From Mesorhizobium loti R88b (GTDB lineage Bacteria > Pseudomonadota > Alphaproteobacteria > Rhizobiales > Rhizobiaceae), in NCBI RefSeq assembly GCF_013170845.1, contig NZ_CP033367.1, positions 6,883,001 through 6,947,000 of the forward strand: a stretch of 64,000 nucleotides of DNA, read 5' to 3'. Positions 8,696 to 23,714 of the stretch are shown here, piece after piece. The first letter of the stretch is position 1; each line of letters starts with the position of its first letter. The position numbers and the translations under genes were made by a program. Below the pieces are notes generated by a model. That model searched no databases and had not been told where the DNA came from. It saw only the letters and a list, made by a program, of their open reading frames with translations.

Positions 8696-9392
8696 ATTCT
8701 CTCCGGCGATGATCATTCAGCTGAAATAGCCACGCAAAACTCGTTCCATAAGCGCTGCTTGGATTGGTCGGCCGCGCTCTCCGACCACCCATCAGAGCTT
8801 TGGGGATTTCCAGCGCTCTCCTTGCGATTGAGACGAAGCGATCCACATGTCGCCATGCTGCGATGAGGCGACCATCGCCTAGGAAACCTAGGACGACACG
8901 CGGTCGACATCTGCGTTTTTGCCAGCTTTGCAAGTGCAGCCAGACTGCCAAACCAACAGACTTCGATAAAAACGCAGTGGCTCTTGTTTGCGATTGGACC
9001 GGCAGGAACTGCACGGTTGCCGAGCCGGATTCCGCGAGGCGATTTTTGTGGCGCTCAACGCGTCACAGAGGTTTCAGCTGCTCGATCGAAGTGCTCGTCT
9101 ACCTGATCGAAACGGGTGCCAATGCCCTCGAAAGGCTGGGCTCGCCGCGGCCGTAAGTCGTCGGATTGTAGTTGACGAGCGTGTGGGTCCTAGCGGTATC
9201 CAGCAACTGATTAGTAATCTGTGTCGGTGTTGCTGACGTGAACTTGCTGCTCTTCTGAACGCGAGTCGTCTGAAAGGCATGCCCGGCAGAGACGGAGCTC
9301 CCTGCCGGGCCGGGTTCGCCTTGGGAGGTGGCGTAAGCTAGCGACTTTCGTGGCGGTGGAACCACTCAATCCGTGCGTTTTGCGCAATAACG
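8696..9392. other. long upstream region of acdS
   Basis: Between acdS and the sigma-54 promoter at 9393-9408 there is no convincing gene on either strand. If that promoter drives acdS, this is a leader of nearly 700 bases. Alternatively a gene that once stood here has decayed beyond recognition. Confidence 0.4.
8935..8950 (-). promoter_or_regulatory. weak candidate sigma-54 promoter for acdS
   Basis: On the minus strand TGGCAGTCTGGCTGCA has GG and GC 10 bases apart, about 240 bases upstream of acdS. The -24 half departs from TGGCAC by one base and the -12 half from TTGC by one. I found no TGT-N10-ACA element upstream at the right distance, so this is less convincing than 9393-9408. Confidence 0.3.
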
Positions 9393-9408
9393 AGCATGTA
9401 CCGTGCCA
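9393..9408 (-). promoter_or_regulatory. sigma-54 (-24/-12) promoter, probably for acdS
   Basis: On the minus strand TGGCACGGTACATGCT has the perfect TGGCACG box and GG-N10-GC spacing. It points toward acdS, and no intact gene lies between. The predicted start is near 9381. Confidence 0.75.
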
Positions 9409-9469
9409 AGCCAAAAAGCATTTAAAAAACACCCAAGAGTCAGCTTCCTCTACGTTGCATACCCGACAT

Positions 9470-9485
9470 TGTCGGTTATCGGACA
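9470..9485. promoter_or_regulatory. NifA upstream activator sequence
   Basis: TGTCGGTTATCGGACA fits TGT-N10-ACA and is nearly palindromic. It lies 62-77 bases upstream of the sigma-54 promoter at 9393-9408, as expected for a NifA enhancer. It closely matches the other NifA elements in the window (TGTCG...CCGACA). Confidence 0.8.
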
Positions 9486-9987
9486 ATGCCGAACGTGCCT
9501 CTCGGCATCGACCTACGCCTGAACCCGAGCGCCCCCGCAAGGTCGTTCGCTGCCATTTCGACCTGGTGGTGACCGGGTTTTAGCTCCGACTGTTCTCCGC
9601 TGACGGACAGGGCGGATGTCGCTTTTAAAAGAGGAACTGTCTGTACCTTCAATTCAAGAGGGCGCGGCCACGAGAGACGGCGCGGCGAATGCGGTCGCGC
9701 AGATGATCGCGAGGATCAACACATCCGGCAGACTGGCAAATCAGCAGCCTGATATCTGTCCACCCTCAGGGGCGCACTCCAAACCGGGGTCAAAATTGGA
9801 CGCCGATTCCCCGCCTCAGGTGTCAAAATCGCACGCCGAAACACAGGACCGTCATCGGCGAATCCGCCCGGAGAACCGAAACTGCATTCCCCTGGGCGGT
9901 AGAACGATGAGAATGCCGTCGCCTTCGACCCTACCAGGGAACCACAGCCTGAATAATGAATCTGCGCTCTGATCTTGTTACGGCGCC
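9486..9987. other. intergenic DNA with insertion-sequence end repeats
   Basis: No gene is recognised. Open frames on both strands are low-complexity. The only structured part is the pair of IS21-like end repeats at 9786-9843. Confidence 0.4.
9786..9843 (+). repeat. IS21-like terminal repeat remnants
   Basis: Two related sequences follow one another: GGTCAAAATTGGACGCCGAT at 9788 and TGTCAAAATCGCACGCCGAA at about 9821. Many IS21-family elements of alphaproteobacteria end in multiple copies of such GTC-N-ATT-ACGCCGAT units, so I read this as an old element end. No transposase lies beside it. Confidence 0.45.
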
Positions 9988-10308
9988 TCAAGGGAGGAGC
10001 AGCGATATGCCGAGCGTTTGATTGCGCTGGGGCACATCTTGAGTTTCATTCCTATGCTCATCGTCGCGCGACTGGTACCGAACTTCCTGGGACCCATCGA
10101 AAAGCTCAGCCCCTTGGCCGGCTTTGCCAGCGCAGCTGGATCGCCAAATCAGAAAGAGCACACTTACGAAATAGCCCAGCTGAAGAAGTAGCGAGCAGCC
10201 CAGCGTCGTGACGACTGCTAGACGGAAAGAATGCGAGGCGAAGTAAACCGCCACAGCGTTGCCGCACAGGACCAGCCCGAGGAGCCGACAAAAGATGATG
10301 AAGCGCAT
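9988..10308 (-). CDS. ExoX-like exopolysaccharide production repressor
   Basis: This small membrane protein (106 residues from the ATG at 10308) has two hydrophobic segments: residues about 3-22 (RLLGLVLCGNAVAVYF) and 30-50 (VTTLGCSLLLQLGYFVSVLFL). A polar tail of about 55 residues follows. The layout and the LGYFVSVLFLIW block resemble ExoX-type repressors, which act after transcription on exopolysaccharide synthesis in rhizobia. The tail is longer than I expect, so the C-terminus may be altered. It lies 37 bases downstream of fdxB on the same strand and could be cotranscribed. Confidence 0.6.
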   Translation of the reverse strand: MRFIIFCRLLGLVLCGNAVAVYFASHSFRLAVVTTLGCSLLLQLGYFVSVLFLIWRSSCAGKAGQGAELFDGSQEVRYQSRDDEHRNETQDVPQRNQTLGISLLLP

Positions 10309-10345
10309 GCCGTTCTCCTGATTTTGTCTCGTCAAATCATGCAGC

Positions 10346-10663
10346 TCATGCTGCGATCTGGTCGGCCGCGAGATGGGTCTGGCAGTTCTTTGGGCAGACG
10401 CGGCCGCAGGCTCCGCAGCCAATGCAGCGGCCGGCATGGTCGACAACCATGATCATACGATTGAGCTCACCGTCGAAATCGTCGTCATCGGCGCCGCAGG
10501 CGCCGAGGATTTCACCCGCGTCATCGACGCCGTAAAGATGCATGACCTCCCGCGAGCAGACTTTGAAGCAGCGGCCGCAGCCGATACAGATCTTGCCATC
10601 GATAGCGATCAGATATTCCGGCACCCATATTGAGCCGTCGCGGCTGATGAATTTGCTCCTCAT
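10346..10663 (-). CDS. fdxB: nif-specific ferredoxin III
   Basis: FdxB is a small ferredoxin with two [4Fe-4S] sites linked to nitrogenase electron supply. The 105-residue sequence has CIGCGRCFKVCSREV (residues about 26-40) and CIGCGACGRVCPKNC near residue 80. Between them is an acidic insert (GADDDDFDG) typical of this family. The start overlaps the stop of the DUF683 gene (ATGA), so the two are translationally coupled. This is the only fdxB in the window: the second copy of the segment at 25 kb has lost it. Confidence 0.95.
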   Translation of the reverse strand: MRSKFISRDGSIWVPEYLIAIDGKICIGCGRCFKVCSREVMHLYGVDDAGEILGACGADDDDFDGELNRMIMVVDHAGRCIGCGACGRVCPKNCQTHLAADQIAA

Positions 10664-10863
10664 CGCAAAGTCTTCATTTTGGCAAGCTCTCTCCTGGCAC
10701 CATCCAACTCGGCATAAACGGCATGCGTTTTCTCGGCGACTTCCTCTATCTCAATCCATTTGACCGGGAGACCCTCGGCAAGGTCGCGCAAGTTCGTCTT
10801 GGCAATTGCCGCGCGCAGTTGAAGCTTTCGGACTTTCTTCGCCATCTCATCCAGGTTTGACAT
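10660..10863 (-). CDS. CCE_0567-family (DUF683) nif-associated protein
   Basis: The protein has 67 residues starting MSNLDEMAKKVRKLQLRAA and is helical and charged throughout. Proteins of this family sit between the DUF269 gene and fdxB in many nif clusters and bind metal; their exact role is unsettled. The ATG at 10863 was chosen because upstream in-frame residues are unrelated. It overlaps fdxB by 4 bases. A stub of a second copy remains at 25.47 kb. Confidence 0.85.
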   Translation of the reverse strand: MSNLDEMAKKVRKLQLRAAIAKTNLRDLAEGLPVKWIEIEEVAEKTHAVYAELDGARRELAKMKTLR

Positions 10864-10888
10864 GATCCTTCCTCGAAAATGGGTTTCT

Positions 10889-11295
10889 TCACGCCCGCGC
10901 CACTTCGGGATAGGCAATAGCTGCAGTCTCATCGCCGACCAGTTTCGCGCCGGTATCCGCGAGTTTCCGGAGAGTCTCGAAGCCGAATCGGAGACGTCTC
11001 GACAGCCGTTTGATTTCTGTTGTTGACAATGTCATCACGCCTGAGCGCTCCTCGATCGCCAGCTCCGACATGTCGAGCCTCCACAGCACGTCCGGATCCG
11101 GATTGCCAATGAGTGGATATTCCGGCGCAGTTCCTCGGTGATAATGAAATCGGCCAGCAGCCAAGTGTCCGATTTCCGTTGGCATGAGCCGTGGAAATCC
11201 TGAGCACGGATCAGCCGCAGGAGGCATTTGACGAACGGGCGGGAAAGGGCCTCGCCATTCTTGTTGACGGCAGGGCCAAGCGCTGCGTGAGACAT
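10889..11295 (-). pseudogene. DUF269 nif protein, frameshifted copy
   Basis: This is a broken copy of the intact gene at 25511-25990. The first half starts at 11295 (MSHAALGPAV), with RPFVKCLLRLIRAQDFHGS and WLLADFIITEELRRN. The frame then shifts, and the second half continues in another frame with [23 protein letters not shown] and ends FETLRKLADTGAKL...YPEVARA. A segment including the intact copy's [19 protein letters not shown] block is also deleted. Gene order (nifX relic, this, DUF683, fdxB) is the normal one. Confidence 0.88.
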
Positions 11296-11315
11296 TTCGT
11301 TTCGTTTCCTCAATT

Positions 11316-11400
11316 TCAGGTCTCGTCCTCAACGGAGGATTTCTGCTTTCGGTTACGCTGACTTCGGGCTCGCTTCCGCAGCCGACGTCCGGCCTCGCCA
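11316..11400 (-). pseudogene. nifX: 3' end of a nifX copy
   Basis: The DNA from the stop codon for roughly 80 bases aligns with the 3' end of the intact nifX at 26008, for example GTCCTCAACGGAGGATTTC here against GTCCTCGAAGGAGGGTTTC there, and it encodes a similar acidic end (SVEDET against SFEDED). Farther upstream the similarity fades. It stands in the position where nifX should precede the DUF269 gene. Confidence 0.6.
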
Positions 11401-11815
11401 GGCCGATTCCACGTAAATGCTGCCCCTGTGGCCGACCTTGAACAGGTCCTGGACTGTGACGTCTTCAACGGCGGGCCAAATTCGCTTCGAATATCGCCGC
11501 CGCGGCTATTCGGTTGGAAGTCTAAGGTCCGAGCCCTGAGCTGGAGCAAACCGTCGACCCTGTGCTCCATGGACACAGTTACTGCGGGCGCGCCGCAGAA
11601 AATGGGCGAATTGACCAGGGTTCCATTCCACTTGTCATCCCGACACCTTGCCGGGCTGAAAGTTCGTGAGAGGATCGCCACGCAGCCAGTCGTCCACTTT
11701 GATCAGAGGAGCCGGTGACTCTCTACGCAACATGTTGTTCTCCATTCCCACACCTTTCCTGACGTTTATGCGCGAGCTGGTTCTCTCAGAACGGAACATT
11801 AGGAGACCATCAAAG
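11401..11815. other. no recognisable gene; CATGG-centred palindrome
   Basis: No family features are seen in any frame. The palindrome TGTGCTCCATGGACACA at 11561-11577 contains TGT-N9-ACA and could be taken for a NifA site, but I found no -24/-12 promoter at a proper distance. The stretch probably holds the decayed front of the nifX copy and what preceded it. Confidence 0.35.
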
Positions 11816-12085
11816 TCTTGCGTGTTCTCATGCGATCAGCCCTCACTCAGTATTTCCGATCTCAACCAGCAAACGTCATGCCAGCGCGTTGCCCGCAGTA
11901 AATGCATGATTCTGCCTGGAAACCTTACAGGCCCAAGACGGCCGGTTGTTTTGAACCCAACATGTTTTCTGCTGCTGTCAGCTTTTGGACACGCATCATG
12001 CGTCAGACGCTTGAGGGCGAGAACGGCTTGGCTGTCTGCCCTGCGGCAATGTTGGCGTCGGCTCATCTAGCATCATTCGCCGCTG
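11816..12085. repeat. diverged ~260-bp direct repeat, copy 1
   Basis: This segment matches 20101-20358 in the same orientation, with numerous substitutions and small gaps. Shared words include GCTGTCAGCTTTTGGACA, CAGACGCTTGAGG and AATGTTGGCGTCGGCTCATC. Neither copy encodes a recognisable protein. The two copies bracket the 12-20 kb block with the hydrazine-type operon, noeL relic and radical SAM gene. Confidence 0.8.
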
Positions 12086-12186
12086 GCGATGCGCGGGCGC
12101 GCTAGGCTGACCCAGCGCCCCGAACCGCATGACCTTCTTGATCGGCTGGCTACAGGTCGGAAATTCCGCGATTCCGAAAAAGTTGG

Positions 12187-12425
12187 TCAGCGCAGTGCAG
12201 CCCGCTCGGCATTTGCCGCACGAATGGCAAGCGCCCGAAAGCTGTCAACCGAGGGATCCTCCAAGGCGCGGGCCGGCATCTCGACGATATGTTGGTTAAG
12301 GCCGGCCAGTGTTTGTGCCTATGGTCTGGGAGTGGCCTTCGGGCAGCCAGTGGTAGCGAGTAAAGCTTTGGCATCCTCGGCTTTGATTGCCGCCCAAATC
12401 TGGTCGAAATCACGATAGGCTATTA
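12187..12425 (-). pseudogene. small gene downstream of cupin-MetRS, start and stop mutated
   Basis: Right after the cupin-MetRS stop, a minus-strand frame reads YRDFDQIWAAIKAEDAKALL, TTGCPKATPRP, stop, AQTLAGLNQHIVEMPARALE and ends ANAERAALR at 12187. A purine-rich GAGGAGGAGG sits at the right distance before ATAATA, where an ATG would be expected. Loss of the start codon and one nonsense codon make it a pseudogene of about 78 codons. I do not recognise the family. It would have been the last gene of the operon. Confidence 0.5.
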
Positions 12426-14423
12426 TGCCTCCTCCTCATGGAGAACAGGAAGCTCTGCTCTGGCGTAGAAGCCTAGCACGGGTCCGAGATCAAAGGTCGT
12501 TCCTGGCGCAAGGCGCCGGACGGACGTGGGCCATGTTTCGGTCGAGACGCCATCGATAGCTCGCGCCAGCGTGCTGGCGAATCGGGGCATCAGCGGTGCG
12601 AGTGTCTGCGCCAGGATCGCAGCGGCCGTCGTCTGAAGGGCGAGCGAAGTGCGGGTGCGGGCGGGATAGAGACGTCGCGCCGCTTCATAGTCTTGCGCCT
12701 GTCGGTAGACTACACAATCGCTCACGAAATCGCAGGCCTGCGCGGCCGCGCGCCGGACCGAGAAGCCATCGTCCGAATAGGCGCGTTCCATCGCCGCGCG
12801 ATGGATCTCTATCCGAGCAAAGAAAGCGCGATCGGCGGGAGCCCAGTCGCCTGCATCGGGCACACAGCCGCCAAAGTCCTGCTTGATTTCCCGGTGCAGC
12901 GCATCAAGCCAATTCAGCCAGATCCCTTGGAACACCTCGTTCTTGGTGCGGCGTAGCGCGTCCAGCGTGAAGTTCGTTCGCTCACCTTCCGGGCGTGTCA
13001 GGCCCAAATGAAGACGGACGACATCGACTGTCTTTGGGCCCAGAACCTCTTTGCCCCAGACCGCATGACCGCGGCTGGTCGAGAACTTCTGGCCGTCGAG
13101 CAGGTAGAACTCGTTCACATGATACCGGATGCGCGGGGTCCAGTGGGAGAAGACCTCAGCATAAAGCGCCGGATAAAGCAGGGCGTGATAGAAGGAATTA
13201 TCGAAGCCGAAGAAATGGACAATTTGCCAGTCCTTGCTGGGCAGGGCCGCATTCCAGTCTCGGCCGAGCGATGTAGCTAGCGCCTGGATGTTGTAAAGAA
13301 AACCAAACGCCATCTCTGGCCAGACCCAGATCACCTGCCCCGGGAGCCCCTCGGCCGGCAGGCCCCAGTCCGAGGGGTGGGTGATGGGCACGGAAAAGTC
13401 GCCACGTTGGCGTAGACGCGCGAAGAGGTCCATGATCCGAACGGGGGCGCCCGACGCCCTTAAATGCCGGTCGATAGTGTCGTAGCACCGTTCCAGCGCA
13501 AGTTCGGGACGGCGCACGGAGCCGACCACCGGCGCCTCGGCCGAGTGCCGCGACCGGACTGCACCTAGGTCGTGGCATAGGTTCGGTGCGCCGCATTCCT
13601 CGCAGATGTTGCCACCAGCGGAGCTGCCGCAATAGGGGCAGAGGCCGATTACATCCGGTTCGTAAAGGTAGTCGCCTGTCACAGCATCGAAGAGCGCAGG
13701 GCTCCGGCGCAGATCTACCGCCGTGCTGCTCAGAAGACTACGGAAACACGCGGCTTGAAACTCTGCGTAAGCGCTATCGCCCAAAGTCGGGAGGAAGCTA
13801 TGGACCTCACAGTCGAGAAGCGCAAGCGTGGCTCGAATCTCGTCGGCGTAGTTGCGCGCCACCTTTGCGGGCGTCGATTGATCGGCATCGGCACGCGTGG
13901 CGACGTAGCTCTGGTAATCGTCGCTTCCAGTCAGGTGATAGGCTTCGACCCCTTTCATGCGCAGGAAACGCGTGTAGACATCGGCGCCAAAATAAGGGCC
14001 AGAAAGATGCCCCAGATGCAGATCGCCATTAGGTGTCGGCGGCGTGGAGAAGACGAAGATCGGTCCGCGCGGAGTCGCGACCTGTGCAGCAGCTTCGAGG
14101 GCGGCCTTGCCGTCGCGCCAGTAGACATCGACGAAATTTAGCTCTTCGTCCCCATCGTTGTGCAGCACATGCGCTTCAAAAGGGTGGAACAGAACGACGT
14201 CGCCGGCTTTGACCGAGATTTCCCCAAGGTCGGTCCTGACCTTGCCCGCTCCTGACAGGACCACGAAGGCCTCGATTTCGTCGTGCCGATGGGGCTCGGA
14301 TGTGACGCCTGGTGCCACCTTGCCAAATGAAAACCCGGTGCCCGCGCTTCCCGTCCCAAGCGCAGCCATGTCGATACCGAACACCCGCGACAGCTGCGTT
14401 CGAGAAAACGTGGATTTCCGCAT
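12423..14423 (-). CDS. cupin-methionyl-tRNA-synthetase-like fusion, hydrazine synthetase type
   Basis: The 666-residue protein begins with a cupin domain (residues about 25-105; metal-type HRH at 45-47, E51, H85). A class I tRNA-synthetase domain of the MetRS type follows. Its HIGH motif is HLGH at 136-139, it has a zinc knuckle CPYC...CEEC near residue 270, and the KMSKS motif reads KFSTS near residue 430. This architecture is that of Spb40, which joins N6-hydroxylysine and glycine through an N-N bond in Streptomyces. The start at 14423 has GAGG just upstream; the frame is open 90 bases farther. A lysine hydroxylase in the same operon supports the role. Function here is inferred. Confidence 0.82.
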   Translation of the reverse strand: MRKSTFSRTQLSRVFGIDMAALGTGSAGTGFSFGKVAPGVTSEPHRHDEIEAFVVLSGAGKVRTDLGEISVKAGDVVLFHPFEAHVLHNDGDEELNFVDVYWRDGKAALEAAAQVATPRGPIFVFSTPPTPNGDLHLGHLSGPYFGADVYTRFLRMKGVEAYHLTGSDDYQSYVATRADADQSTPAKVARNYADEIRATLALLDCEVHSFLPTLGDSAYAEFQAACFRSLLSSTAVDLRRSPALFDAVTGDYLYEPDVIGLCPYCGSSAGGNICEECGAPNLCHDLGAVRSRHSAEAPVVGSVRRPELALERCYDTIDRHLRASGAPVRIMDLFARLRQRGDFSVPITHPSDWGLPAEGLPGQVIWVWPEMAFGFLYNIQALATSLGRDWNAALPSKDWQIVHFFGFDNSFYHALLYPALYAEVFSHWTPRIRYHVNEFYLLDGQKFSTSRGHAVWGKEVLGPKTVDVVRLHLGLTRPEGERTNFTLDALRRTKNEVFQGIWLNWLDALHREIKQDFGGCVPDAGDWAPADRAFFARIEIHRAAMERAYSDDGFSVRRAAAQACDFVSDCVVYRQAQDYEAARRLYPARTRTSLALQTTAAAILAQTLAPLMPRFASTLARAIDGVSTETWPTSVRRLAPGTTFDLGPVLGFYARAELPVLHEEEA

Positions 14424-14750
14424 GACGAACCTCAGCTGTCGAAACAGTGGTCTCTTCGGCTGCCGACGCAACAGCATCTGCTGCAAGTTGCGAAGAGAGC
14501 GGCAGCCCGACACGTTGGCCCCCCGTCAGAATAGTCCGGCTCTGGGCCCCAGGCGGGCGAAACTACGGGCGCCAGGAGGGCTTTAGGCGTCACAGAAGAG
14601 CGCCCGGCGACACCTCTTCACATCGACATACCGAAGCGTCGTGACGGACTGCAGGCGATGCTCCAGTAGCCGGCAATCAAAACCATGCTCTCCGCGCATT
14701 TTTTTGGCGGCCGATCAGTTTCGTTTGCATTCCCGCCTGGTTCCGTGAGC

Positions 14751-15530
14751 TCAATCGCGATAGAAAATGCCGTTTGGGAGCTTGAGGTTGTCGAGATCAG
14801 CCACTTTGCCCTCTGGCGGATTAAGGGCGCGCTTAAGCACGTTATACTCAGCGCGGGTCGGTCCACCGGTTGAAGCACGCTGGAACACCAAGTAGAGCGT
14901 CCGCCGCGAACGATTGCTTTTATTCGGCTTCGAGTAATGCGGTGCATAATCGTCGAAGATGAAGATGTCGCCAGCCTTCCATACTACGGGTTCCCAGGAG
15001 AATGTTTCGGCGACCTCAGGATCAATCACCCCGCCGGCATCCATGGGAAATACCCCCTTCTTGTGGTTGCCGGGGCTGAAGAAAAGGCCACCATTGTCCG
15101 GGTCGGAATCGTCAATGCCTATGGCAACGATCGCATGGACCATCCGGTCGGGCAGCCTGTGTGGAATGTGATAAATGTCCTGATGCGGGCGATAACCGCC
15201 GCTATCGGGATAGTGGAAGATCAGCAACTCCTTGAGTCTGCGCGAATCTTCGCCAAGCAAATCCTCGACCGCAGAGTTTATGCGCTGATCTTCTAGGAGG
15301 AGCAGACGCAATGGGTCATGGAAGTCCAGAAAATTCTCGGCCTTAGACGTGATCTTTCGATCATCAGTCGTCTTCTCGAACCACATGAGCCATTTATCAT
15401 CGCTGACATCCCAGCGTGATATGTCTTCAACAAAGCTAGACATACCTTCCACAGCCGCGGGATCGAAGAACCTTTCGAGCCTGATGTATCCGTCTTTCTG
15501 CCACTTTTCTCTTTGTGCATCGGTCAACAT
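14751..15530 (-). CDS. phytanoyl-CoA dioxygenase-like Fe(II)/2-oxoglutarate enzyme
   Basis: The 259-residue protein belongs to the PhyH group of non-heme iron dioxygenases, which hydroxylate or otherwise oxidise small molecules. The iron triad is visible: H and D in PHQDIYH near residue 135 and a distal H in APHYSK near residue 206. An Arg in RRTLYLVF could bind 2-oxoglutarate. The ATG at 15530 was chosen for the perfect AGGAGG about 9 bases upstream. The gene lies between the FAD oxidase relic and the cupin-MetRS gene, so it probably tailors the product of that pathway. The substrate is unknown. Confidence 0.82.
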   Translation of the reverse strand: MLTDAQREKWQKDGYIRLERFFDPAAVEGMSSFVEDISRWDVSDDKWLMWFEKTTDDRKITSKAENFLDFHDPLRLLLLEDQRINSAVEDLLGEDSRRLKELLIFHYPDSGGYRPHQDIYHIPHRLPDRMVHAIVAIGIDDSDPDNGGLFFSPGNHKKGVFPMDAGGVIDPEVAETFSWEPVVWKAGDIFIFDDYAPHYSKPNKSNRSRRTLYLVFQRASTGGPTRAEYNVLKRALNPPEGKVADLDNLKLPNGIFYRD

Positions 15531-15559
15531 GCGAAAAGCCTCCTGTTGGAAAGAGTGGT

Positions 15560-16295
15560 TGGTCAAACATTCCGGTTAGAGGCAGTCGGGCGCCGTCAGG
15601 GTGTGGGCCGGAGACGATACTCCACGGCATGCAGACGGCGACGCTAAGTGCGTTGCGCTCCGGGTGGATTGCAAGGCTTTGTTGTCCCTCCTCAATGGAG
15701 AGATCGCCCAGGCCCGTAAAGATCTATCGATCCGGTACGTCTGCATAGTAGTCACGGCCGAGCATGCTGTTGATGGTGCGACTGCCCGATAAGAGGACCT
15801 TTCGTGCAGCCTGACGCAACGCAAGTCGTGCGCCGCGCAAATCTTTGCGACAAGTTCCCGTTCGGGTCGGGCGATCAGGGAGGCACGTCGCTGGCATCGG
15901 GTCCATCGATGCTCCAAAAACGAGTATTGTCCGCACAAGTTCGGCGCCAGACTGCCCATCCGAGGCCACGCAGGGTCCAGGGATTCCCGAAGCTGGTGCC
16001 GATCACTTACCTCACCCGGTCCAGCCACCACACGCATCGCTACGAGCCGGAAGCCTCCGCTGACGGCCGACGCAGCCATGGTCGCCAGGGCCACTGCGCA
16101 CTTTCGAGTGAGCGACCTAGTACGGTTTCGACGACCCTGGGGCAAATGGACGCCCGCAGAATAAAGCGATGCGCCCATAGATCCAAGGGCATGTTCAGTG
16201 ACGATGAGTTCGGAGCGGACTCCGGCCGTCGCCGCGGCGGAGGCGGATAAAATTCCTTGGATGCCACCGCCGATGATCAGTAGTCGCTGAGTCAT
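15560..16295 (-). pseudogene. FAD-dependent (DAO-type) oxidase, multiply frameshifted
   Basis: The start is good: MTQRLLIIGGGIQG, an FAD-binding Rossmann motif, and the ATG overlaps the lysine hydroxylase stop (ATGA). After about 60 residues coherence is lost. Later parts occur in other frames: RPERELVAKICAAHDLR, then SGSRTINSMLGRDYYADVPD, then SIEEGQQSLAIHPERNALSV. At about 735 bases it is also shorter than the roughly 1.1 kb of such oxidases. In the Streptomyces hydrazine pathway an FAD oxidase acts after N-N bond formation, and this relic occupies that place. Confidence 0.72.
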
Positions 16296-17851
16296 ATCCC
16301 GCTGCCCATTTCTTCGGCTACCGGGTCGGGCCAGCTCTCGACGGTGGTACGGCTGATAAAGCCAGGATGCTCAGGGTTCGCGCACGGCGCGCGCTGTAGA
16401 AGGCTGTCAAGAATGCGGCGAGCTCGCCACGCCAGCAGGCTTAGGTTCGGATCGGCCAGCCCGCGCTGGCCGGGATTGGCGTTCTGTACGAAGATGCGTC
16501 TGTCACGCGGTCCGTCCCAGCACACCGAAAAATCCTCGTTGATGACCAACTCATTGTCGGTCTGTTGCAGCTGATCCGCCATCGGTTCCAAAAAGCTTGG
16601 CACGGCGTTCTCGTAACCGGTGGCCAGGATGACGATGTCGGCCGTGACTTCTTCGACGTCGCCCAAGCCGCGCTGCAGCGTCAAGTTGTGACCCGCGCCG
16701 GCGTTGATGCAGCGCGAAACGTTGCAACCCGGCCGCAGTGCGATGTCACATAGGTCTGGCTCAAGAAATTCGTGGCGATACAGCGCCTGGTAGACGGCGC
16801 GCAAAGTGCGATCCGAAATCCCATCCGAGGCGAGCACGAAACGCCGCAGGAACAGCTTGCGCTGCGGCTCGCTCATGGCCGCGAAACGATCCGAAAAACA
16901 GGGCATGAACAACTCGTTTGTGAACGGGCTGTTGTCGAGGGGCAGGTAGTTTTCGCGCTGCGAGACCCAGGTGATCGAGGCAGGCCGCCGTTCTCTTGGC
17001 CCACCGACCAAATGCAACAGCACCTCGGCTCCCGACTGGCCTCCACCAACGACACAAACATGTTTATGTCGCACCTCAGGATGGATGTGCAGCAAATCGG
17101 ATGAATGGAACAGGTTGCGTCCGATCCAGCCCTGAAATTGAGGTGGAATCCGCGCTTGCTTGCCGATGCCGACCACCAGGTCTCTTGCACCGAGAACTGC
17201 ATCGTCCGTCCGCACCCGAAACTCGCCATCATAGCGTATTTCGCGGACGGTCTCGCCGCCGCGCACAAGTGGGTTTCTGCGGAACGCCCAGTTCAGGTAT
17301 TGTTCGAACTCAGCCCTGAGCACAGCATCGAACTGTGCATTCAGAAAGTGGTATAGACGCCCGTTCTCGTGCAGGTAGTTTATGAACGTGTAGGCGGATC
17401 GCGGATTCACCAGCGTGACCAGATCCTTGATGTGGCTGACCTGGAGTTCTGAGGACTCGAATGCGCTGCCTGGATGCCAGCGGAAGTCGACTTGCCGATC
17501 CAAGAACAGTGCCCCGTGCCCAACCTGCTCATGGATCTGACACGCGAGGCTCAAATTGGACGGGCCAGCACCGATCCCAATGCAAGAGAGCTCCAGGTGC
17601 CTTGCTCCTGCTGACGCCTCCCAATCAGGCGCTGTACGCGGCGAATGTCGGCCATAGCCGGTCGGCTTGCCCTCCCCGCACGCATCATCGACACCACAGG
17701 ACTTGCAACAGTTTGTCCGGGCGTTCGTAGTATCGGGTGTGACGCCCGCAGATGCCGGCTCCGTGATGAGATCTGAACTCATGCCGACGACATGTTGCGC
17801 GTGGCTGGCATCAAGACTCCCGCCTCGATGACCCGGAGTGGTCAGTGACAT
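16292..17851 (-). CDS. L-lysine N6-monooxygenase (IucD/PvdA family)
   Basis: This flavin-dependent enzyme hydroxylates the side-chain amine of lysine (or ornithine) using NADPH and oxygen. From about residue 88 the sequence is a complete family member: FAD site CIGIGAGPSNLSLA, RWHPGSAFES, VSHIKDLVTLVNPRS, NADPH site VVGGGQSGAEVLLH, and C-terminal ILATGYENAVPSF. The first 85 or so residues are a non-family extension with a Cys cluster (CCKSCGVDDAC), so the true start could be later. It is the first gene of the operon behind the sigma-54 promoter at 18025. Pairing with the cupin-MetRS gene points to lysine as substrate, as for Spb38. Confidence 0.88.
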   Translation of the reverse strand: MSLTTPGHRGGSLDASHAQHVVGMSSDLITEPASAGVTPDTTNARTNCCKSCGVDDACGEGKPTGYGRHSPRTAPDWEASAGARHLELSCIGIGAGPSNLSLACQIHEQVGHGALFLDRQVDFRWHPGSAFESSELQVSHIKDLVTLVNPRSAYTFINYLHENGRLYHFLNAQFDAVLRAEFEQYLNWAFRRNPLVRGGETVREIRYDGEFRVRTDDAVLGARDLVVGIGKQARIPPQFQGWIGRNLFHSSDLLHIHPEVRHKHVCVVGGGQSGAEVLLHLVGGPRERRPASITWVSQRENYLPLDNSPFTNELFMPCFSDRFAAMSEPQRKLFLRRFVLASDGISDRTLRAVYQALYRHEFLEPDLCDIALRPGCNVSRCINAGAGHNLTLQRGLGDVEEVTADIVILATGYENAVPSFLEPMADQLQQTDNELVINEDFSVCWDGPRDRRIFVQNANPGQRGLADPNLSLLAWRARRILDSLLQRAPCANPEHPGFISRTTVESWPDPVAEEMGSGI

Positions 17852-18024
17852 GCTTTCGCAGCCTATCCCTCATTGCAATTGGGCTCGGTTGCCCGCCTCG
17901 ACCGTGATGAGCCGACCTTCGGCCTGCTTGGCGACCAGCGAGGGCACGATCATGAGTGCGGCGACAGCATTTTTCCGTGGGTTTGATCATAGAAGACCTC
18001 CGCTGCTGCTTTCGGGAGGTCCCC

Positions 18025-18040
18025 TGCATCGAACGTGCCA
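18025..18040 (-). promoter_or_regulatory. sigma-54 promoter of the hydrazine-type operon
   Basis: On the minus strand TGGCACGTTCGATGCA has a perfect -24 box and the exact 10-base GG-GC spacing. Transcription would start near 18013, about 160 bases before the lysine hydroxylase start, with no gene between. Confidence 0.88.
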
Positions 18041-18084
18041 GAGCAAAACATCAGCAAAGGGAACGGAAGGCAGGTTCGCAATCC

Positions 18085-18100
18085 TGTCGAGTATCCGACA
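18085..18100. promoter_or_regulatory. NifA upstream activator sequence
   Basis: TGTCGAGTATCCGACA fits TGT-N10-ACA, 45-60 bases upstream of the sigma-54 promoter at 18025-18040. It shares the TGT...TCCGACA pattern with the elements before iscN and at 59072. It makes the hydrazine-type operon a probable NifA target. Confidence 0.85.
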
Positions 18101-18237
18101 TTGAGGCCGAAACCTTGCACCGGCGCCGATTTTTGCACGCAATCGTACTCTTCGACTTCATAGCGTTGCAGGCTCTCTTGGCACTTTCCACACGGCCGTC
18201 ATCGAGGACTGGCCCGGCGCCGAGTGTCGATCCCTGA

Positions 18238-18900
<663 letters not shown>

Positions 18901-18971
18901 TGACTTCGCGGCATGTGCATCTTGCCGTTTCAGGGACGTCGGCATTTCAGGCCCGCCGCGGTCAGCCGGCG

Positions 18972-19862
18972 TCAGTCAGTTCTATCGTTTGGATCGGCAA
19001 ATTCACACATCCTGCAAAGCAGAAAACCAGCCGCTCCATTCATGCGATCGACGATTTCGCAAAAAACTTGGCTTTTAAAGAGATCGCCATATTCGTCGCA
19101 TAGAAGGTTGCCCAATACGTGACGCCGCTCAAAATCCATGGAGCAGAGAGTGACCTCGCCGTTTGGAAGTAGTACATTCCGATACTGCCGTTCGTCCACG
19201 CATATCAGCGCTCCGACGACTGGCTGCCGTGGTTCTACAATCTTAGGGTCTACGCTTCCACCCCTGCTGCTCACCGGTCGCGCGCGAACTAGGGCTTGGG
19301 CAGGGATAATGTCGGCGATATCGGGATGGGGCTCACCCAAAACCACGAATCGGATCGAAGGGATGTCGGCGTCGACGAGTTGACCAACCAAATCGCGATA
19401 CTTGGCTCCGACAAGGCGGCTATTCATGTGGGCGCCATCATCAAAAACATGAACCACGAATACCCCCAACCGCAGCGCCTGCAAGCGTTGTAGATCCTGC
19501 CCCTTCATTCCCACAAGCGTCGTGAAAATCCTGATGCCGTGGCCTTTGGCGGAAGCGTGCTCGACCATTTCGGTGCAATCGGGATTGAGCCATGGCTCAG
19601 AATACCCGGCAAAACTAATGTCGACGGAGGCTGGTACGCGCGCCAGACAGCGCTTGAAATCTCCAAGACTAAGATGCTTCGTATCAGATACTTTTCTTTG
19701 CCGGTCAGCGAACTTGTCCTGCGGACAATATGAACATCCCACGATGCATCCGGTGGTCGTCGTTATCTCCAAAACTCTGCCGGCTGGGATAGCAGAGCGC
19801 AGTTCCGGTAAAATCATTCGTTGTGACTCCCACTCGTCTTGGTCATGCATAACGTCCAGCAT
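18972..19862 (-). CDS. radical SAM protein with C-terminal Cys cluster
   Basis: The radical SAM [4Fe-4S] motif C-x3-C-x2-C lies in TGCIVGCSYCPQDKF, about 35 residues from the chosen start. SFAGYSEPWLNP follows. The C-terminal part holds several Cys (CVDERQYRNVLLPNGEVTLC, LLCDEYGDLF and CRMCEF), which looks like a SPASM-type domain for auxiliary clusters. Such enzymes modify peptides or small molecules; the substrate is unknown. The start is uncertain: 19862 or 19850 fit the family better than the far-upstream 20018. It lies upstream of the hydrazine-type operon on the same strand, but the noeL relic and the operon's own promoter intervene. Confidence 0.8.
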   Translation of the reverse strand: MLDVMHDQDEWESQRMILPELRSAIPAGRVLEITTTTGCIVGCSYCPQDKFADRQRKVSDTKHLSLGDFKRCLARVPASVDISFAGYSEPWLNPDCTEMVEHASAKGHGIRIFTTLVGMKGQDLQRLQALRLGVFVVHVFDDGAHMNSRLVGAKYRDLVGQLVDADIPSIRFVVLGEPHPDIADIIPAQALVRARPVSSRGGSVDPKIVEPRQPVVGALICVDERQYRNVLLPNGEVTLCSMDFERRHVLGNLLCDEYGDLFKSQVFCEIVDRMNGAAGFLLCRMCEFADPNDRTD

Positions 19863-20023
19863 GGTGTCGTTGGCTTCATGACACCGACGGTCAAGACAGT
19901 CCGAATGAGCCCAGCCATCTCCGCCTGGGCAGCAGTCAACAGCCGGTTTCCTCAATCTGCCGGGCGGACTATCAACGAACTTTGGGCGCATCGGCGCGGC
20001 AGGGCGGCGCAACCGCAAAGTCG

Positions 20024-20090
20024 CGCGTCAGCCATTGCCAAGGTGTAGCCGTGACCGTTGAGCGGGCGCGCCGCCGAGATGGCGCAGCAG
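20024..20090 (-). pseudogene. acdS: 3' scrap of a second acdS copy
   Basis: About 65 bases match the last 20-odd codons of acdS at 7682, including GTAGCC.T.ACCGTTGA and GCGCGCCGCCGAGATG, with a one-base deletion. It abuts repeat copy 2 at 20101. Only the end of the gene remains. Confidence 0.75.
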
Positions 20091-20100
20091 AAAATCAATC

Positions 20101-20358
20101 GTCTCGCGTTCTTATGCGGTCAGCCCCCACTCAACATTGCCGCATCTCCAGCAAAGGCCGTGCCAGCGCGCTTAGCCGCAGCAACTGCACGAGTAGGCTT
20201 CGAGAAACCTCACGCCCAAGGCGGCCGGTGGTTTTGGACCAGACAGTTTTTTGTCGCTGTCAGCTTTTGGACATGCATTTCAGACGCTTGAGGACAGACT
20301 TGGCTGTCTCCCCTGCGGTAATGTTGGCGTCGGCTCATCATCTAGCATCATTTCGGCA
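20101..20358. repeat. diverged ~260-bp direct repeat, copy 2
   Basis: Same orientation as 11816-12085 and fused on its left to an acdS 3' scrap. Blocks shared with copy 1 include GCTGTCAGCTTTTGGACA and AATGTTGGCGTCGGCTCATC. The scrap suggests that the repeat moved or recombined together with acdS-adjacent DNA. Confidence 0.8.
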
Positions 20359-21026
20359 CCGGCTGTGTGCGCGGAAGATCTACACGACCTGACCGCCGCG
20401 TGCAGCGACTGCCTGCCGGCTCATAGCTGATCTTTTCTCCTGAAGCCGGCGATGGGGCCAGGCCGTCGAGTGCGTGCTGCCGGATGCTGCGTATGCTGTC
20501 TGGCTAGACGGCGGATACCGCGTCACCTCCATATTTTCGCGACAGAGGTTTGGTGGCGTCGCAGGCCTTCCTGCTACATCACCGCAGTGCTCGGGAATTC
20601 GTATCTGATCCCCGTGAGGCGAAGACCTTCTCTCTCGACTGGCTCGCCGAGGCCGTCTGTCCTGCGGGCACCGAATGATTTCTCATTTGGCATGGCGCAT
20701 GCGCGTCGATCCGCAAACCCCGTCTGGACAAATCGGAGCTGGCCGCCACTCCACCTCCTCCTACCACGAGGGCAGACGGGAAGCAGCGCCTTCAAATAAG
20801 GAACAAAATCACTTTACCTCGAATCTTGCCTCTCGATCACAACCGGAGCCATGGAACCGCGTCCGCGACCATCGCCTCGCGCCCCAAGGCAATTGCCCAG
20901 CGCAAATGGCTACGCGCGATTACGCCATGCATCCCTTACGAGGCTATGACAGCACCTCGGAGAGCCTCGCCGCCATCATGCAGACCGATCTAAGCCCACC
21001 TGATCCAGCACAAAGGAATTTCAAAC
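20359..21026. other. no recognisable gene
   Basis: Open frames here show no family features and start far from any good ribosome-binding site. The last bases (AAAGGAATTTCAAAC) carry the ribosome-binding site of the acetoacetate decarboxylase gene. I see no sigma-54 promoter. Confidence 0.4.
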
Positions 21027-21770
21027 ATGCACCAAGATACCGTCCGTGGGAAAGCTTTCGCCATGCCCCTGACCAGCCCGGCCTACCCGGCCGGCCCATA
21101 TCGCTTCCGCAACCGGGAGTATCTGATCATCACATATCGCACCGATCCGCAGAAACTGCGCGACCTTGTGCCGGAGCCGCTTCAGGTGTGCGAGCCTATG
21201 GTCAAGTTCGAGTTCATTCGCATGCCGGACTCGACGGGCTTCGGCGACTACACGGAAGGCGGACAGGTCATCCCTGTCTCCTTCTGTGGCCGCAGGGGGA
21301 GCTATACCCACTGCATGTTTCTCGACGACCATCCGCCGATAGCGGGCGGACGCGAGTTGTGGGGCTTTCCCAAGAAGCTCGCTAGCCCAACGCTCCGAAC
21401 GGAGACGGATACCCTTGTTGGCACGCTGGACTACGGGCCGGTCCGCGTCGCGACGGGTACCATGGGCTACAAGCACCGAGCCGCCGACCTCGCGAGCGTG
21501 AGGGCCTCGCTCGCTGAACCGAACTTCCTCCTCAAAATTATCCCGCATGTCGACGGCACGCCGCGCATCTGTGAGCTCGTGGAATATCATCTAGAGGACG
21601 CCCATTTGAGGGGCGCCTGGACCGGCCCGGCAGCCCTGAACCTCTGGTCGCATGCGCTTGCCCCCGTCGCCGAACTGCCGGTGCTGGAAGTAGTCTCGGC
21701 AGTACACCTCGTCGCAGATCTCACGCTCGCGCTCGGGAAGGTCGTCCACGACTATCTCCCGGAAGCCTAG
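21027..21770 (+). CDS. adc: acetoacetate decarboxylase
   Basis: The enzyme converts acetoacetate to acetone and CO2 through a Schiff base on lysine. The 247-residue protein has family length; the catalytic lysine pair lies in [12 protein letters not shown] (about residues 112-123). [14 protein letters not shown] and [11 protein letters not shown] are also present. AAAGGA precedes the ATG by 8 bases. It is followed after 24 bases by an unknown gene on the same strand. A role in handling acetoacetate from polyhydroxybutyrate turnover is possible, but nothing nearby confirms it. Confidence 0.9.
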
Positions 21771-21794
21771 CCTCGCCATCGGAAAGGAAGAACC

Positions 21795-22196
21795 ATGAAC
21801 TTTTACAGTGATATCTCATTGAACCAACGCGATGGGGAGCTGCTGGACGGCTTCTCGACAAGGAACGCCACTGACAATCTCATACAACGTCTTTCCAGCT
21901 ACCTAGCCTTAGAGGACATTCCGCCGCTTTGCAGCGAGTGCAGGCGCCTCGCGAGTAAGAGCGATTGCCCTTGCCCATCCTCCCTGCTTTTGGTGCAACA
22001 TATGCTCGCTGCCGTTTACCAGCGGCTTGACGCCATTGACTGCCTCTCAGAGCAAGGCCCCATAAGACTGAAGGCTTTTACCGATTATCTGGCGGCGGTC
22101 GTTCGAATAGCTTCAGAGAGCGGCGACGCGGCACCCTGGATTGATCTAGCAACCCGGTTTAGCGCTCTTTTCGATCCCGACGAGGTTGCCCATTGA
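21795..22196 (+). CDS. unknown 133-residue protein
   Basis: I do not recognise this family. The protein is soluble, largely helical by composition, and contains a Cys-rich stretch CSECRRLASKSDCPCPSS near residues 47-62 that could bind metal. GGAAAGGAAG precedes the ATG, and codon use resembles neighbouring genes, so it is probably real. It may be cotranscribed with adc. Confidence 0.6.
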   Translation: MNFYSDISLNQRDGELLDGFSTRNATDNLIQRLSSYLALEDIPPLCSECRRLASKSDCPCPSSLLLVQHMLAAVYQRLDAIDCLSEQGPIRLKAFTDYLAAVVRIASESGDAAPWIDLATRFSALFDPDEVAH

Positions 22197-22773
22197 TCTC
22201 GCGCTTATCGCTTTTTCGTGGAACGAGCAGCCTCGTCGGCAGATGCGTCATCGATCGCCAGCGGCGTGCCGGCGCATATGCGAGCGTAAAAGTGCCGAGC
22301 AGCCGGTGATGTATCTCGAACGTGACGACGCCGATTGGCGCGATGCGCGTTGGCTCGGGGCCTCGTGCCCAAGCATGGGTGCGTTCCCATTCCGCTGCAT
22401 CGTACTCGCGATCCCGTCTGTGCCGTGCTCAAGCAAACGAGCTCGAGCGAACCGCCCCAGGTTGCGGATTTAGACAGTCGTTGATGGAGTTGGCTGGCGA
22501 ATTGGCGCGTTCGGCCTTCGGTTGGAAGACCGGCTTGAGGGGGGCCAACGAGACGGAATTGGCGAAGCCACGCTGGAGTATGCCTTCACTGGGGTCGCGT
22601 CCCTGCACGTGCTGTAGCGCAGCGTTCGCGAAGCCGCTCGCGAGCGCGCCCTCATAGCGCTGAGCGGGCGAGCGGCTTCGGGGCGGGCGCAGAGGCTGGG
22701 TAGACGGGCCGGACTCACCTCACCTGGTCCAGCCACGACATGCATCGCCAAAGGCAAGGACCCCGCTGACCGC
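22197..22773. other. no recognisable gene; short match to 16.0 kb
   Basis: No frame shows family features. Bases 22717-22750 (ACCTCACCTGGTCCAGCCAC...) closely match 16009-16042 inside the FAD oxidase relic, and weaker similarity continues for about 25 bases. This may be a shared short repeat or a scrap of the same gene. Confidence 0.4.
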
Positions 22774-22913
22774 GCCCGCAAGGGGGGAGATTGGCCGTCA
22801 TCGCTGCCTTCGCCAATCTCCAAGGCTAGAAGTTTGGAGCCGCCAGGGAAGCTGCCGGTCTCCCCCTTGCGGGGGAGATGGCCGGCAGGCCAGAGGGGGG
22901 CTGTCCCGCCAGC
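22774..22913. repeat. Mesorhizobium-type intergenic palindromic repeat
   Basis: CCCGCAAGGGGGGAGATTGGC and CCAATCTCC lie on one side and TCTCCCCCTTGCGGGGGAGATGGC and GGCAGGCCAGAGGGGGGC on the other, forming a large palindromic unit of about 140 bases. From memory this layout is very common between genes in Mesorhizobium chromosomes, and it supports the genus assignment. It abuts the 3' end of the oxidoreductase fragment. Confidence 0.75.
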
Positions 22914-22914
22914 G

Positions 22915-23560
22915 TTAGATCACATTCAATTCCCTGAACGCCCGCCCTTCAGCGACACGGCTGTACCCAAACGCCGAGCAGTCCACCGTGCGGTAGCCGC
23001 CGTGCACGATCAGCTCGGCCAGCGCCTTGCCGACCGCCGGGGCCTGCTGCAGGCCGTGACCGGAAAAACCATTGGCGAAGAGGAAACTCTTAACCTGCGG
23101 ATGCGGGCCGATCACCGCGTTCTGGTCGAGCGTGTTGTAGTCGTAATGGCCGGCCCAGGCGCGTGTCGGCTTGATCGCCTCGAAGGCCGGAATGCGGGTC
23201 GCCAGCACCGGCCAGATCACCTCTTCGAACAGCGGCCAGTCGACCTCGAAATCGGTGGGGTCGGCCGAGCCGTCGCCTTCTTCCGGTTCGGCGCCGCCAG
23301 TGAGATAGACCGAGCCTTCCGGCCGGACATAGATGCCGGAGGGATCGACCAGCAGCGGCATATCAGAATATTTGTCGCGCGCCTCGAAGACGAAGACGTT
23401 GCGCTTGCGCGGCTCGACCGGCAACACCAGCCCCGCCATGGCAGCCACCGTGCCGGCATTCGGCCCGGCTGAGTTGACGACGATGCCGACTTCCAGCCTG
23501 TCGCCATTGTCGAGGCTGACACTGGTCACGCTCTGGCCGTTCCACCTCCGCCTTGCGCAT
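22915..23560 (-). pseudogene. FAD-dependent oxidoreductase, 5'-truncated
   Basis: The C-terminal half of a DAO-type oxidoreductase is intact in one frame: DNGDRLEVGIVVNSAGPNAG, GIYVRPEGSVYLTGGAEPEE, AGHYDYNTLDQNAVIGPHP and FANGFSGHGLQQAPAVGKAL. The N-terminal FAD-binding GxGxxG region is missing, and upstream sequence in the same frame (to an ATG at 23652) is unrelated. The kept part resembles FOXRED1-like oxidases. It is a different gene from the relic at 15.6-16.3 kb. Confidence 0.75.
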
Positions 23561-23714
23561 GACTGGAGAGATTTCCGGCGGGCGTCGCCTCCCGAGCAAT
23601 GCTTTTCATGTTCGTTACTCTTCGTAAGATCGATTATTTCGATGGAGCCCATCTACGTATGAATGCAGGCGTCACAGTAGAGCTTTGAACAGCATCGGTG
23701 CGGGTCCGGAACCG

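Follow-up and report, generated by a model that had tools for sequence, protein, structure and literature searches.

The described route closest to the operon considered here is the Spb38-Spb39-Spb40 pathway, known from s56-p1 and also from triacsin, azaserine and N-nitroglycine. The operon lies on the minus strand of a 64,000-nt stretch of DNA (the window) from the 7.2-Mb genome of Mesorhizobium loti R88b, near nitrogenase genes, and comprises, in order, a flavin-dependent N-hydroxylating monooxygenase (NMO), a relic of a flavin adenine dinucleotide (FAD) oxidase gene, a PhyH-family dioxygenase (PhyH) and a fusion of a cupin with a methionyl-tRNA synthetase (MetRS)-like domain, the hydrazine synthetase (HS). 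A first-pass annotation of the window, made from its letters alone, had likened this operon to the Spb route, and the likeness extends to the NMO and cupin-MetRS families, the gene order and the cupin ligands. The operon is not a plain copy, however, since its Spb39-type FAD oxidase, which once held the middle place in the set, is broken, and PhyH stands inside the oxidase gene. Also unlike the Spb set, it is under NifA/sigma-54 control beside nif genes, and no nonribosomal peptide synthetase (NRPS) or tailoring gene was seen next to HS.

The second close system is the msi280 operon of the symbiosis island ICEMlSymR7A, which has an identical 17-mer promoter amid six neighbouring NifA-type promoters that are likewise identical; judged from these sequences, the two are in effect the same operon. 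The available part of the msi280 account (PubMed Central (PMC) record PMC3538637) names an L-lysine 6-monooxygenase only and proposes no hydrazine pathway. Separately, Q8KGM6/CAD31310 of M. japonicum R7A is placed among 'other identified hydrazine synthetases' in Table 2 of PMC11705231, in a block citing Zhao 2021. It is very probably the orthologue of the R88b HS, of which the genome holds one gene, and comes from the same island type; the available part of that source treats the enzyme only, giving neither its amino acid nor a tie to NifA or PhyH. In Zhao 2021 itself (PMC8664883), homologues were expressed together with a lysine N-hydroxylase, and enzymes for serine, alanine and tyrosine were newly identified besides the glycine users, the R7A enzyme not being named in the part available. 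No paper that joins the NifA-dependent msi280 with the R7A synthetase, or that links a hydrazine synthetase with nodulation, was found in the open-licence PMC literature. The first-pass statement that no such nodule-specific pathway had been described therefore holds only in part: promoter and synthetase have each been published, but the two halves have not been joined in print. Here these two facts, a NifA-dependent lysine monooxygenase and an R7A hydrazine synthetase, are brought together, and what is new is a broken FAD oxidase gene whose middle is filled by a PhyH segment resembling a different, split-type operon, under NifA control.

We consider it reasonably probable that the operon encodes a nodule-induced pathway for N–N bond formation, in which NMO and HS would make a hydrazine from lysine and glycine that is then oxidised by the captured PhyH. 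If so, bacteroids would build an N–N bonded compound when and where the N–N bond of dinitrogen is broken, and the strains concerned would include the model R7A type, in which the first gene is already available as a lacZ fusion mutant.

The hydrazine synthetase and the interrupted oxidase gene

HS is a single open reading frame (ORF), probably starting at the methionine of MRKSTF, in which a Cupin_2 domain (6.5e-14) lies N-terminal to a tRNA-synt_1g domain (5.3e-51). Its HLGH and KFSTS sequences correspond to the ATP motifs HxGH and KxSxS, and cupin residues H75, H77, E81 and H115 are spaced as H50, H52, E56 and H90 of PyrN (zinc ligands HxHxxxE...H, with the essential Glu kept). In a 37-row tree, built by a quick method and with the housekeeping MetRS as a very long branch, the nif-linked rhizobial HS sequences form one clade (nine rows, support 100) inside the fused enzymes. 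Among the latter are the sequences from G. harbinensis and S. fragilis (azaserine), K. aureofaciens (triacsin) and S. noursei (N-nitroglycine); these references are species of known producers, partly represented by other strains, as for K. aureofaciens. The genome's own MetRS falls far outside. As judged by its domains, catalytic residues and place in the tree, the cupin-MetRS is thus a hydrazine synthetase, and the first-pass reading came through a comparison on which it could have fallen, HS grouping with Spb40-type enzymes and not with housekeeping MetRS.

On tree and residues together we reject a housekeeping or editing MetRS identity for HS. The broader alternative, that such a MetRS stands beside an NMO making a hydroxamate siderophore, draws on the MetRS-like fold of HS and on the fact that NMOs are common in siderophore clusters. 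It is scarcely credible: besides the tree, the genome has a separate 517-aa MetRS, and the ORFs of 9000–23000, of which nine were profile-scanned, include no recognisable siderophore synthetase.

An FAD oxidase gene is the usual companion of such synthetases. Outside the nif-linked clade it lies directly upstream of HS in 58 of 61 fused-HS loci (59 from the best 80 of 362 matches, plus two plasmids) and within 6 kb in 59, while an NMO lies within 8 kb in 60. In the window, a 239-aa ORF (15576–16295) without a Pfam match is like the intact oxidase for only its first ∼168 residues, beyond which it continues as other sequence, and a separate 3′ piece of ∼175 nt sits between PhyH and HS. The PhyH-bearing loci examined all have the oxidase gene in pieces or gone, the remnants being a 5′ piece ahead of PhyH and a 3′ piece immediately ahead of HS, and in some strains one or both have eroded. 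M. caraganae, where PhyH is absent, has a whole 350-aa FAD ORF, the sole whole copy at any rhizobial locus examined; the layout in S. terangae matches, with a frameshift near the 3′ end of the oxidase gene.

Between the two oxidase pieces, 1184 bp of the window align unbroken (73.3%) to M. amorphae plasmid pM0123d, and they consist of the last ∼190 nt of an NMO gene, PhyH, and the first ∼130 nt of a standalone cupin gene. The cupin piece matches cupin by tblastn with an E value of 9e-11 in the related locus L056 and of only 0.001 in the window. Oxidase nucleotides 1–496 and 874 onward meet the ends of the captured segment within ∼15 nt in the window; across 13 PhyH-bearing rows the 5′ point is at 495–496 in seven and the 3′ point at 874–881 in 10, the others being shorter. 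Because the junctions are shared among these rows, the simplest account is that a segment of a split-type operon was captured into the oxidase gene by one recombination. The HS tree does not show the PhyH-bearing rows as one clade, L056, L058, L059 and L060 falling outside a branch (100/99) in which M. caraganae is joined with the remaining PhyH-bearing rows; an approximately unbiased (AU) test did not reject forcing them into one clade (p 0.2). From the sequences, an unrelated oxygenase derived from a second type of hydrazine operon seems to have taken over from the usual cleaving FAD oxidase, which would make the locus a readable case of pathway evolution through a gene-internal swap.

A working oxidase elsewhere in the window, to which the search was limited, was considered and rejected: a DAO-family ORF at 22915–23652 (minus strand) is no evidence of a working copy because it matches only the C-terminal half of the family. 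The lineages that keep the oxidase and lack PhyH likewise give only weak support for a working ancestral pathway, because at otherwise conserved positions the HS of M. caraganae (L074) has WSSSEM and R202 and that of S. terangae (L079) has H443L, the latter beside a broken NMO.

The split-type operon, with the order MFS-NMO-PhyH-cupin-MetRS (MFS, major facilitator superfamily) and no FAD oxidase inside, occurs on plasmids of M. amorphae (pM0123d), Rhizobium sp. CB3090 and CCGE531. Its description here comes from annotated records, no account of it having been found in the open-licence PMC literature; one bean-rhizobia paper concerned the chromosomal MetRS. In CB3090, CCGE531, the sym plasmids of R. 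etli/phaseoli and pM0123d its PhyH is 73–81% identical to that of R88b, and it is the putative donor of the R88b segment or a relative of that donor. It differs in having separate cupin and MetRS genes, the MetRS being 29–31% identical to the fused kinds over the aligned part, and in having an exporter, a MocR-type regulator and no convincing NifA promoter; in R. etli the only candidate was a one-mismatch site inside the MFS relic without an activator site at the usual spacing. In bean rhizobia the split-type operon lies between nodA and nolP/nodD2 on the sym plasmid (R. etli CIAT 652 pB, 384224–403018, L146), where it is decaying, with an internal stop in the NMO gene and a truncated MFS gene.

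PhyH itself has an ORF length matching that of its relatives, and H116, D118, H198 and R209/R210 are invariant in 23 sequences, the HxD...H residues presumably being the iron ligands and Arg serving 2-oxoglutarate, as in the family. On plasmids (PhyH E values up to 1e-40, coordinates compared by hand, five regions inspected), a hydrazine-synthetase MetRS gene, split in 33 cases and fused in one, lies ∼0.35 kb downstream of the PhyH relative in all 34 records, which stand for about five lineages because most are near-identical plasmids of bean rhizobia. Conversely, five of 38 split-MetRS plasmid records have no PhyH match. Relatives of PhyH are found in only three of 397 order-level genomes (one being the window's own), all beside hydrazine-synthetase genes, and the phylum sample gave the same three; further relatives occur in Pseudomonas, Paraburkholderia and Collimonas. 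No paper linking phytanoyl-CoA dioxygenase with hydrazine was found in the open-licence PMC literature. At the hand-chosen pocket positions the split MetRS reads differently, which may mean that it takes another amino acid, and we infer that a PhyH serving both kinds of operon would most simply act on the shared lysine-derived half. PhyH is a new candidate enzyme for hydrazine handling.

Table 1. Elements of the hydrazine-type operon, in positions of the window
Feature	Position	Strand	Basis or remark
NifA upstream activator TGT-N10-ACA, on the operon strand TGTCGGATACTCGACA	18085..18100	-	sequence scan
Sigma-54 -24/-12 promoter TGGCACGTTCGATGCA	18025..18040	-	predicted +1 near 18015
NMO, flavin N-hydroxylase of lysine/ornithine type	16292..17851	-	PF13434 Lys_Orn_oxgnase 1.3e-87
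5′ relic of Spb39-type FAD oxidase (codons 1 to ~165)	15800..16295	-	blastn 78.6% to intact M. caraganae gene; tblastn 56%
Putative captured segment, left end: 3′ end of NMO gene from a split-type hydrazine operon	15592..15784 (limits approximate)	-	tblastn to M. amorphae NMO C-terminus E 3.6e-14; blastn continuous to L149
PhyH, Fe(II)/2-oxoglutarate dioxygenase, 259 aa	14751..15530	-	PhyH domain 1.1e-41; HxD...H and Arg conserved
Putative captured segment, right end: 5′ end of standalone cupin gene from a split-type operon	14601..14727 (limits approximate)	-	blastn continuous to L149 across PhyH into cupin
3′ relic of FAD oxidase (from ~codon 292)	14431..14605	-	blastn 72.7%, E 4e-26
HS, cupin-MetRS hydrazine synthetase, 666 aa	12423..14423	-	longest ORF extends to 14513

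All the parts named in the first-pass annotation, including the HLGH and KFSTS motifs and both promoter elements, are present (Table 1). The left edge of its span for the operon, 12187..18100, takes in ∼240 bp beyond the HS stop where no gene was recognised.

NifA control, distribution and selection

The sigma-54 site upstream of NMO occurs once genome-wide, with 44 bp between it and the NifA site, and the predicted transcription start is ∼165 bp before the longest NMO ORF. Extended by one base, it is the same sequence as the promoter given for msi280 in Table 1 of PMC3538637 (Sullivan 2013). It is one of seven exact 17-mer matches in the window to the ICEMlSymR7A promoters of that study, the matched promoters being msi262, acdS, msi276, msi280, 'Nr msi281' and two copies of the sequence shared by nifH/msi071/msi321. 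Because of these seven matches, and because the operon DNA (12423–18110) is letter-identical in M. loti CJ3sym, the window carries an R7A-type island; at the protein level the operon is also identical to that of locus L035. In R7A nodules, the available part of PMC3538637 gives 371.6 Miller units for an msi280 lacZ fusion in the wild type, 268.9 in the nifA1 mutant and 7.3 in the nifA2 mutant. With both sites present and the promoter that of msi280, the NifA/sigma-54 control proposed in the first-pass annotation is supported.

The site is kept beyond R88b. Of 36 rows scanned, allowing up to two mismatches, three lack an NMO; all the other 33 have a sigma-54 site in the kilobase searched, and 30 of these also have TGT-N10-ACA, this activator sequence being absent upstream of NMO in L046, L057 and L062. 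The background density of sigma-54 sites at the same tolerance is ∼0.14 per kb of single strand, from a count of 19, true sites included, over 132,429 bases at six loci, and the site upstream of NMO is more than chance.

A radical SAM/SPASM ORF (18972–20018, minus strand) lies just upstream of the operon and is faced by the NifA promoter at 20150–20166. This is the 'Nr msi281' promoter, called an orphan with no annotated genes by Sullivan 2013 in the part of PMC3538637 available. A perfect sigma-54 site is present in 17 of 17 loci with the start of the ORF and TGT-N10-ACA upstream in 16; the ORF, broken in one locus, is a candidate for an unannotated member of the NifA regulon.

Of 146 Mesorhizobium genomes, 32 have HS, either complete or fragmented (E 1e-100), and every one of these carries nifH (29 over the cut-off and three partial, at 1e-100 to 1e-105). 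The nifH gene was counted only over the cut-off or at 1e-100 and better, because the search matched weakly in all 14 control genomes (three over the cut-off). Counted in this way, HS occurs in 32 of 100 nif+ genomes versus none of 46 without nifH (Fisher p 1.7e-6, kinship ignored). It is also present in records of Aminobacter anthyllidis, Bradyrhizobium rifense and Sinorhizobium terangae.

NMO, PhyH and HS are all intact by ORF length in 24 of 37 rows (the window, 31 genome loci and five named loci), including Mesorhizobium, a Bradyrhizobium and a plasmid. Median ratios of nonsynonymous to synonymous divergence (dN/dS) are 0.163 for NMO (448 pairs), 0.133 for PhyH (338) and 0.222 for HS (426), and the three genes are under purifying selection. 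Over eight close pairs that include the window, 0.050–0.083 of the sites of the FAD relic differ, versus dN of 0.004–0.036 and dS of 0.012–0.26 for the three genes, from which the relic looks unconstrained.

Proposed reactions and competing readings

In the pathway that we favour, NifA and RpoN switch the operon on, as published for its first gene in R7A and expected here from the identical promoter, and PhyH and HS would be read on the transcript of NMO. The NMO would N-hydroxylate an amino acid, most likely L-lysine. By the known chemistry of HS homologues, the MetRS-like domain would then adenylate glycine and esterify it to the N-hydroxy group, after which the zinc cupin would rearrange the ester to a hydrazine, with N6-(carboxymethylamino)-lysine the expected product from these presumed substrates. 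PhyH would oxidise this hydrazine in the stead of the lost FAD oxidase, most likely by hydroxylating the lysine carbon that adjoins nitrogen, a step that would perhaps release hydrazinoacetate, together with aminoadipate semialdehyde.

The substrates may be other than lysine and glycine, in that N5-hydroxyornithine or another amino acid partner would give a different hydrazine; this we regard as unlikely, although the evidence from NMO does not speak against it. The conserved core of NMO is its last 434 residues (from ∼17596), the true start being uncertain, and scores against solved structures are 183 bits for 6xbb, 175 for PvdA (3s5w), 150 each for 7us3 and 5o8p, and 141 for MbtG. PvdA and MbtG share with NMO the Lys in SHIKDLV and the motif DNSPFTNE, residues that we take to bind the amino acid substrate; in 6xbb, 7us3 (putrescine) and 5o8p that Lys is replaced by Ser or Ala and DNSPFTNE is absent. 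The residues are thus of the amino-acid type, but are the same in PvdA (ornithine) and MbtG (lysine) and do not separate the two substrates. For HS, 18 of 19 pocket-region positions, chosen by hand, equal those of G. harbinensis, S. fragilis, K. aureofaciens and S. noursei; the only difference is a Tyr-to-Phe change. These letters, shared with species making azaserine, triacsin or N-nitroglycine from lysine and glycine, fit the same pair here, but they barely test it, as they hardly vary among the fused enzymes and the set has no known Glu, Ala, Ser or Tyr users. The hydrazine synthetase family uses Gly, Ala, Ser, Glu and Tyr (PMC11705231, available part), and the S. noursei pathway takes lysine and glycine (PMC13274452, available part).

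PhyH might also tailor rather than cleave, adding a hydroxyl to an intact carbon, whether of lysine, of glycine or of the joined hydrazine, so that the product keeps both halves. Foldseek on a weak PhyH model favours this, with the free-amino-acid hydroxylases EctD, proline hydroxylase H11 and GriE ranking high, and cleavage may be unneeded because the inspected split operons show no FAD-oxidase gene inside. Nevertheless we hold it somewhat unlikely, since PhyH fills the place of a cleaving enzyme, the oxidase is in pieces or gone at all PhyH-bearing loci examined, and the two PhyH-less loci that keep an NMO, those of M. caraganae and S. terangae, keep it whole or nearly whole. A bolder proposal can be put forward tentatively, as a real possibility: that PhyH-type Fe/2-oxoglutarate enzymes form a second, flavin-independent class of hydrazine-processing enzymes acting by oxidative N-dealkylation, and that bacteroids use one on NifA command to free a hydrazine such as hydrazinoacetate, which would serve as a signal specific to nodules, as a rhizopine-like nutrient or as an antibiotic. 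On that view the operon would be a natural hybrid of two hydrazine pathways, with one step swapped by gene-internal recombination.

To the thin test of glycine are added several points that weigh against a nodule-induced hydrazine pathway. The reaction of PhyH on the hydrazine is a guess; its model is weak (mean pLDDT 65.8), the best NCBIfam matches of PhyH (methylphosphonate hydroxylase) and NMO (histamine monooxygenase) are far below cut-off, and about 30 of the 34 plasmid records of PhyH relatives are near-identical. The interval from HS to the next promoter shows neither an exporter nor a tailoring gene, and at E 1e-100 HS went unmatched in 68 of ∼100 nif+ Mesorhizobium genomes. In 13 of 37 rows one or more genes of the triple are broken or missing, some breaks possibly being draft-assembly errors, HS has a dN/dS of 0.22–0.47 in the eight close pairs, a hint of relaxation, and an msi280 mutant of R7A is Fix+ (PMC3538637, available part), which gives no support for a benefit.

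These last three points, with the FAD relic, would also suit an operon that is a dying relic, transcribed in nodules while no longer making a useful product. Against this stand the 24 intact rows, median dN/dS values of 0.13–0.22 and the sigma-54 site kept in 33 of 33 rows, and we consider it quite improbable. The first-pass suggestion that rhizobia may make, or once made, a hydrazine-type compound is narrowed in consequence: with the three genes open here and under purifying selection 'once made' is the less likely half, although not all rows are fully intact.

S. meliloti SM11 carries a complete NMO-FAD-HS set with NRPS genes on the accessory plasmid pSmeSM11b (100741–120699, L150), which possibly codes for an uncharacterised hydrazine natural product. 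Hydrazine synthetases are also present, whether by chance or in parallel, in Pseudofrankia and Protofrankia (L116, L129), relatives of actinorhizal nodule bacteria.

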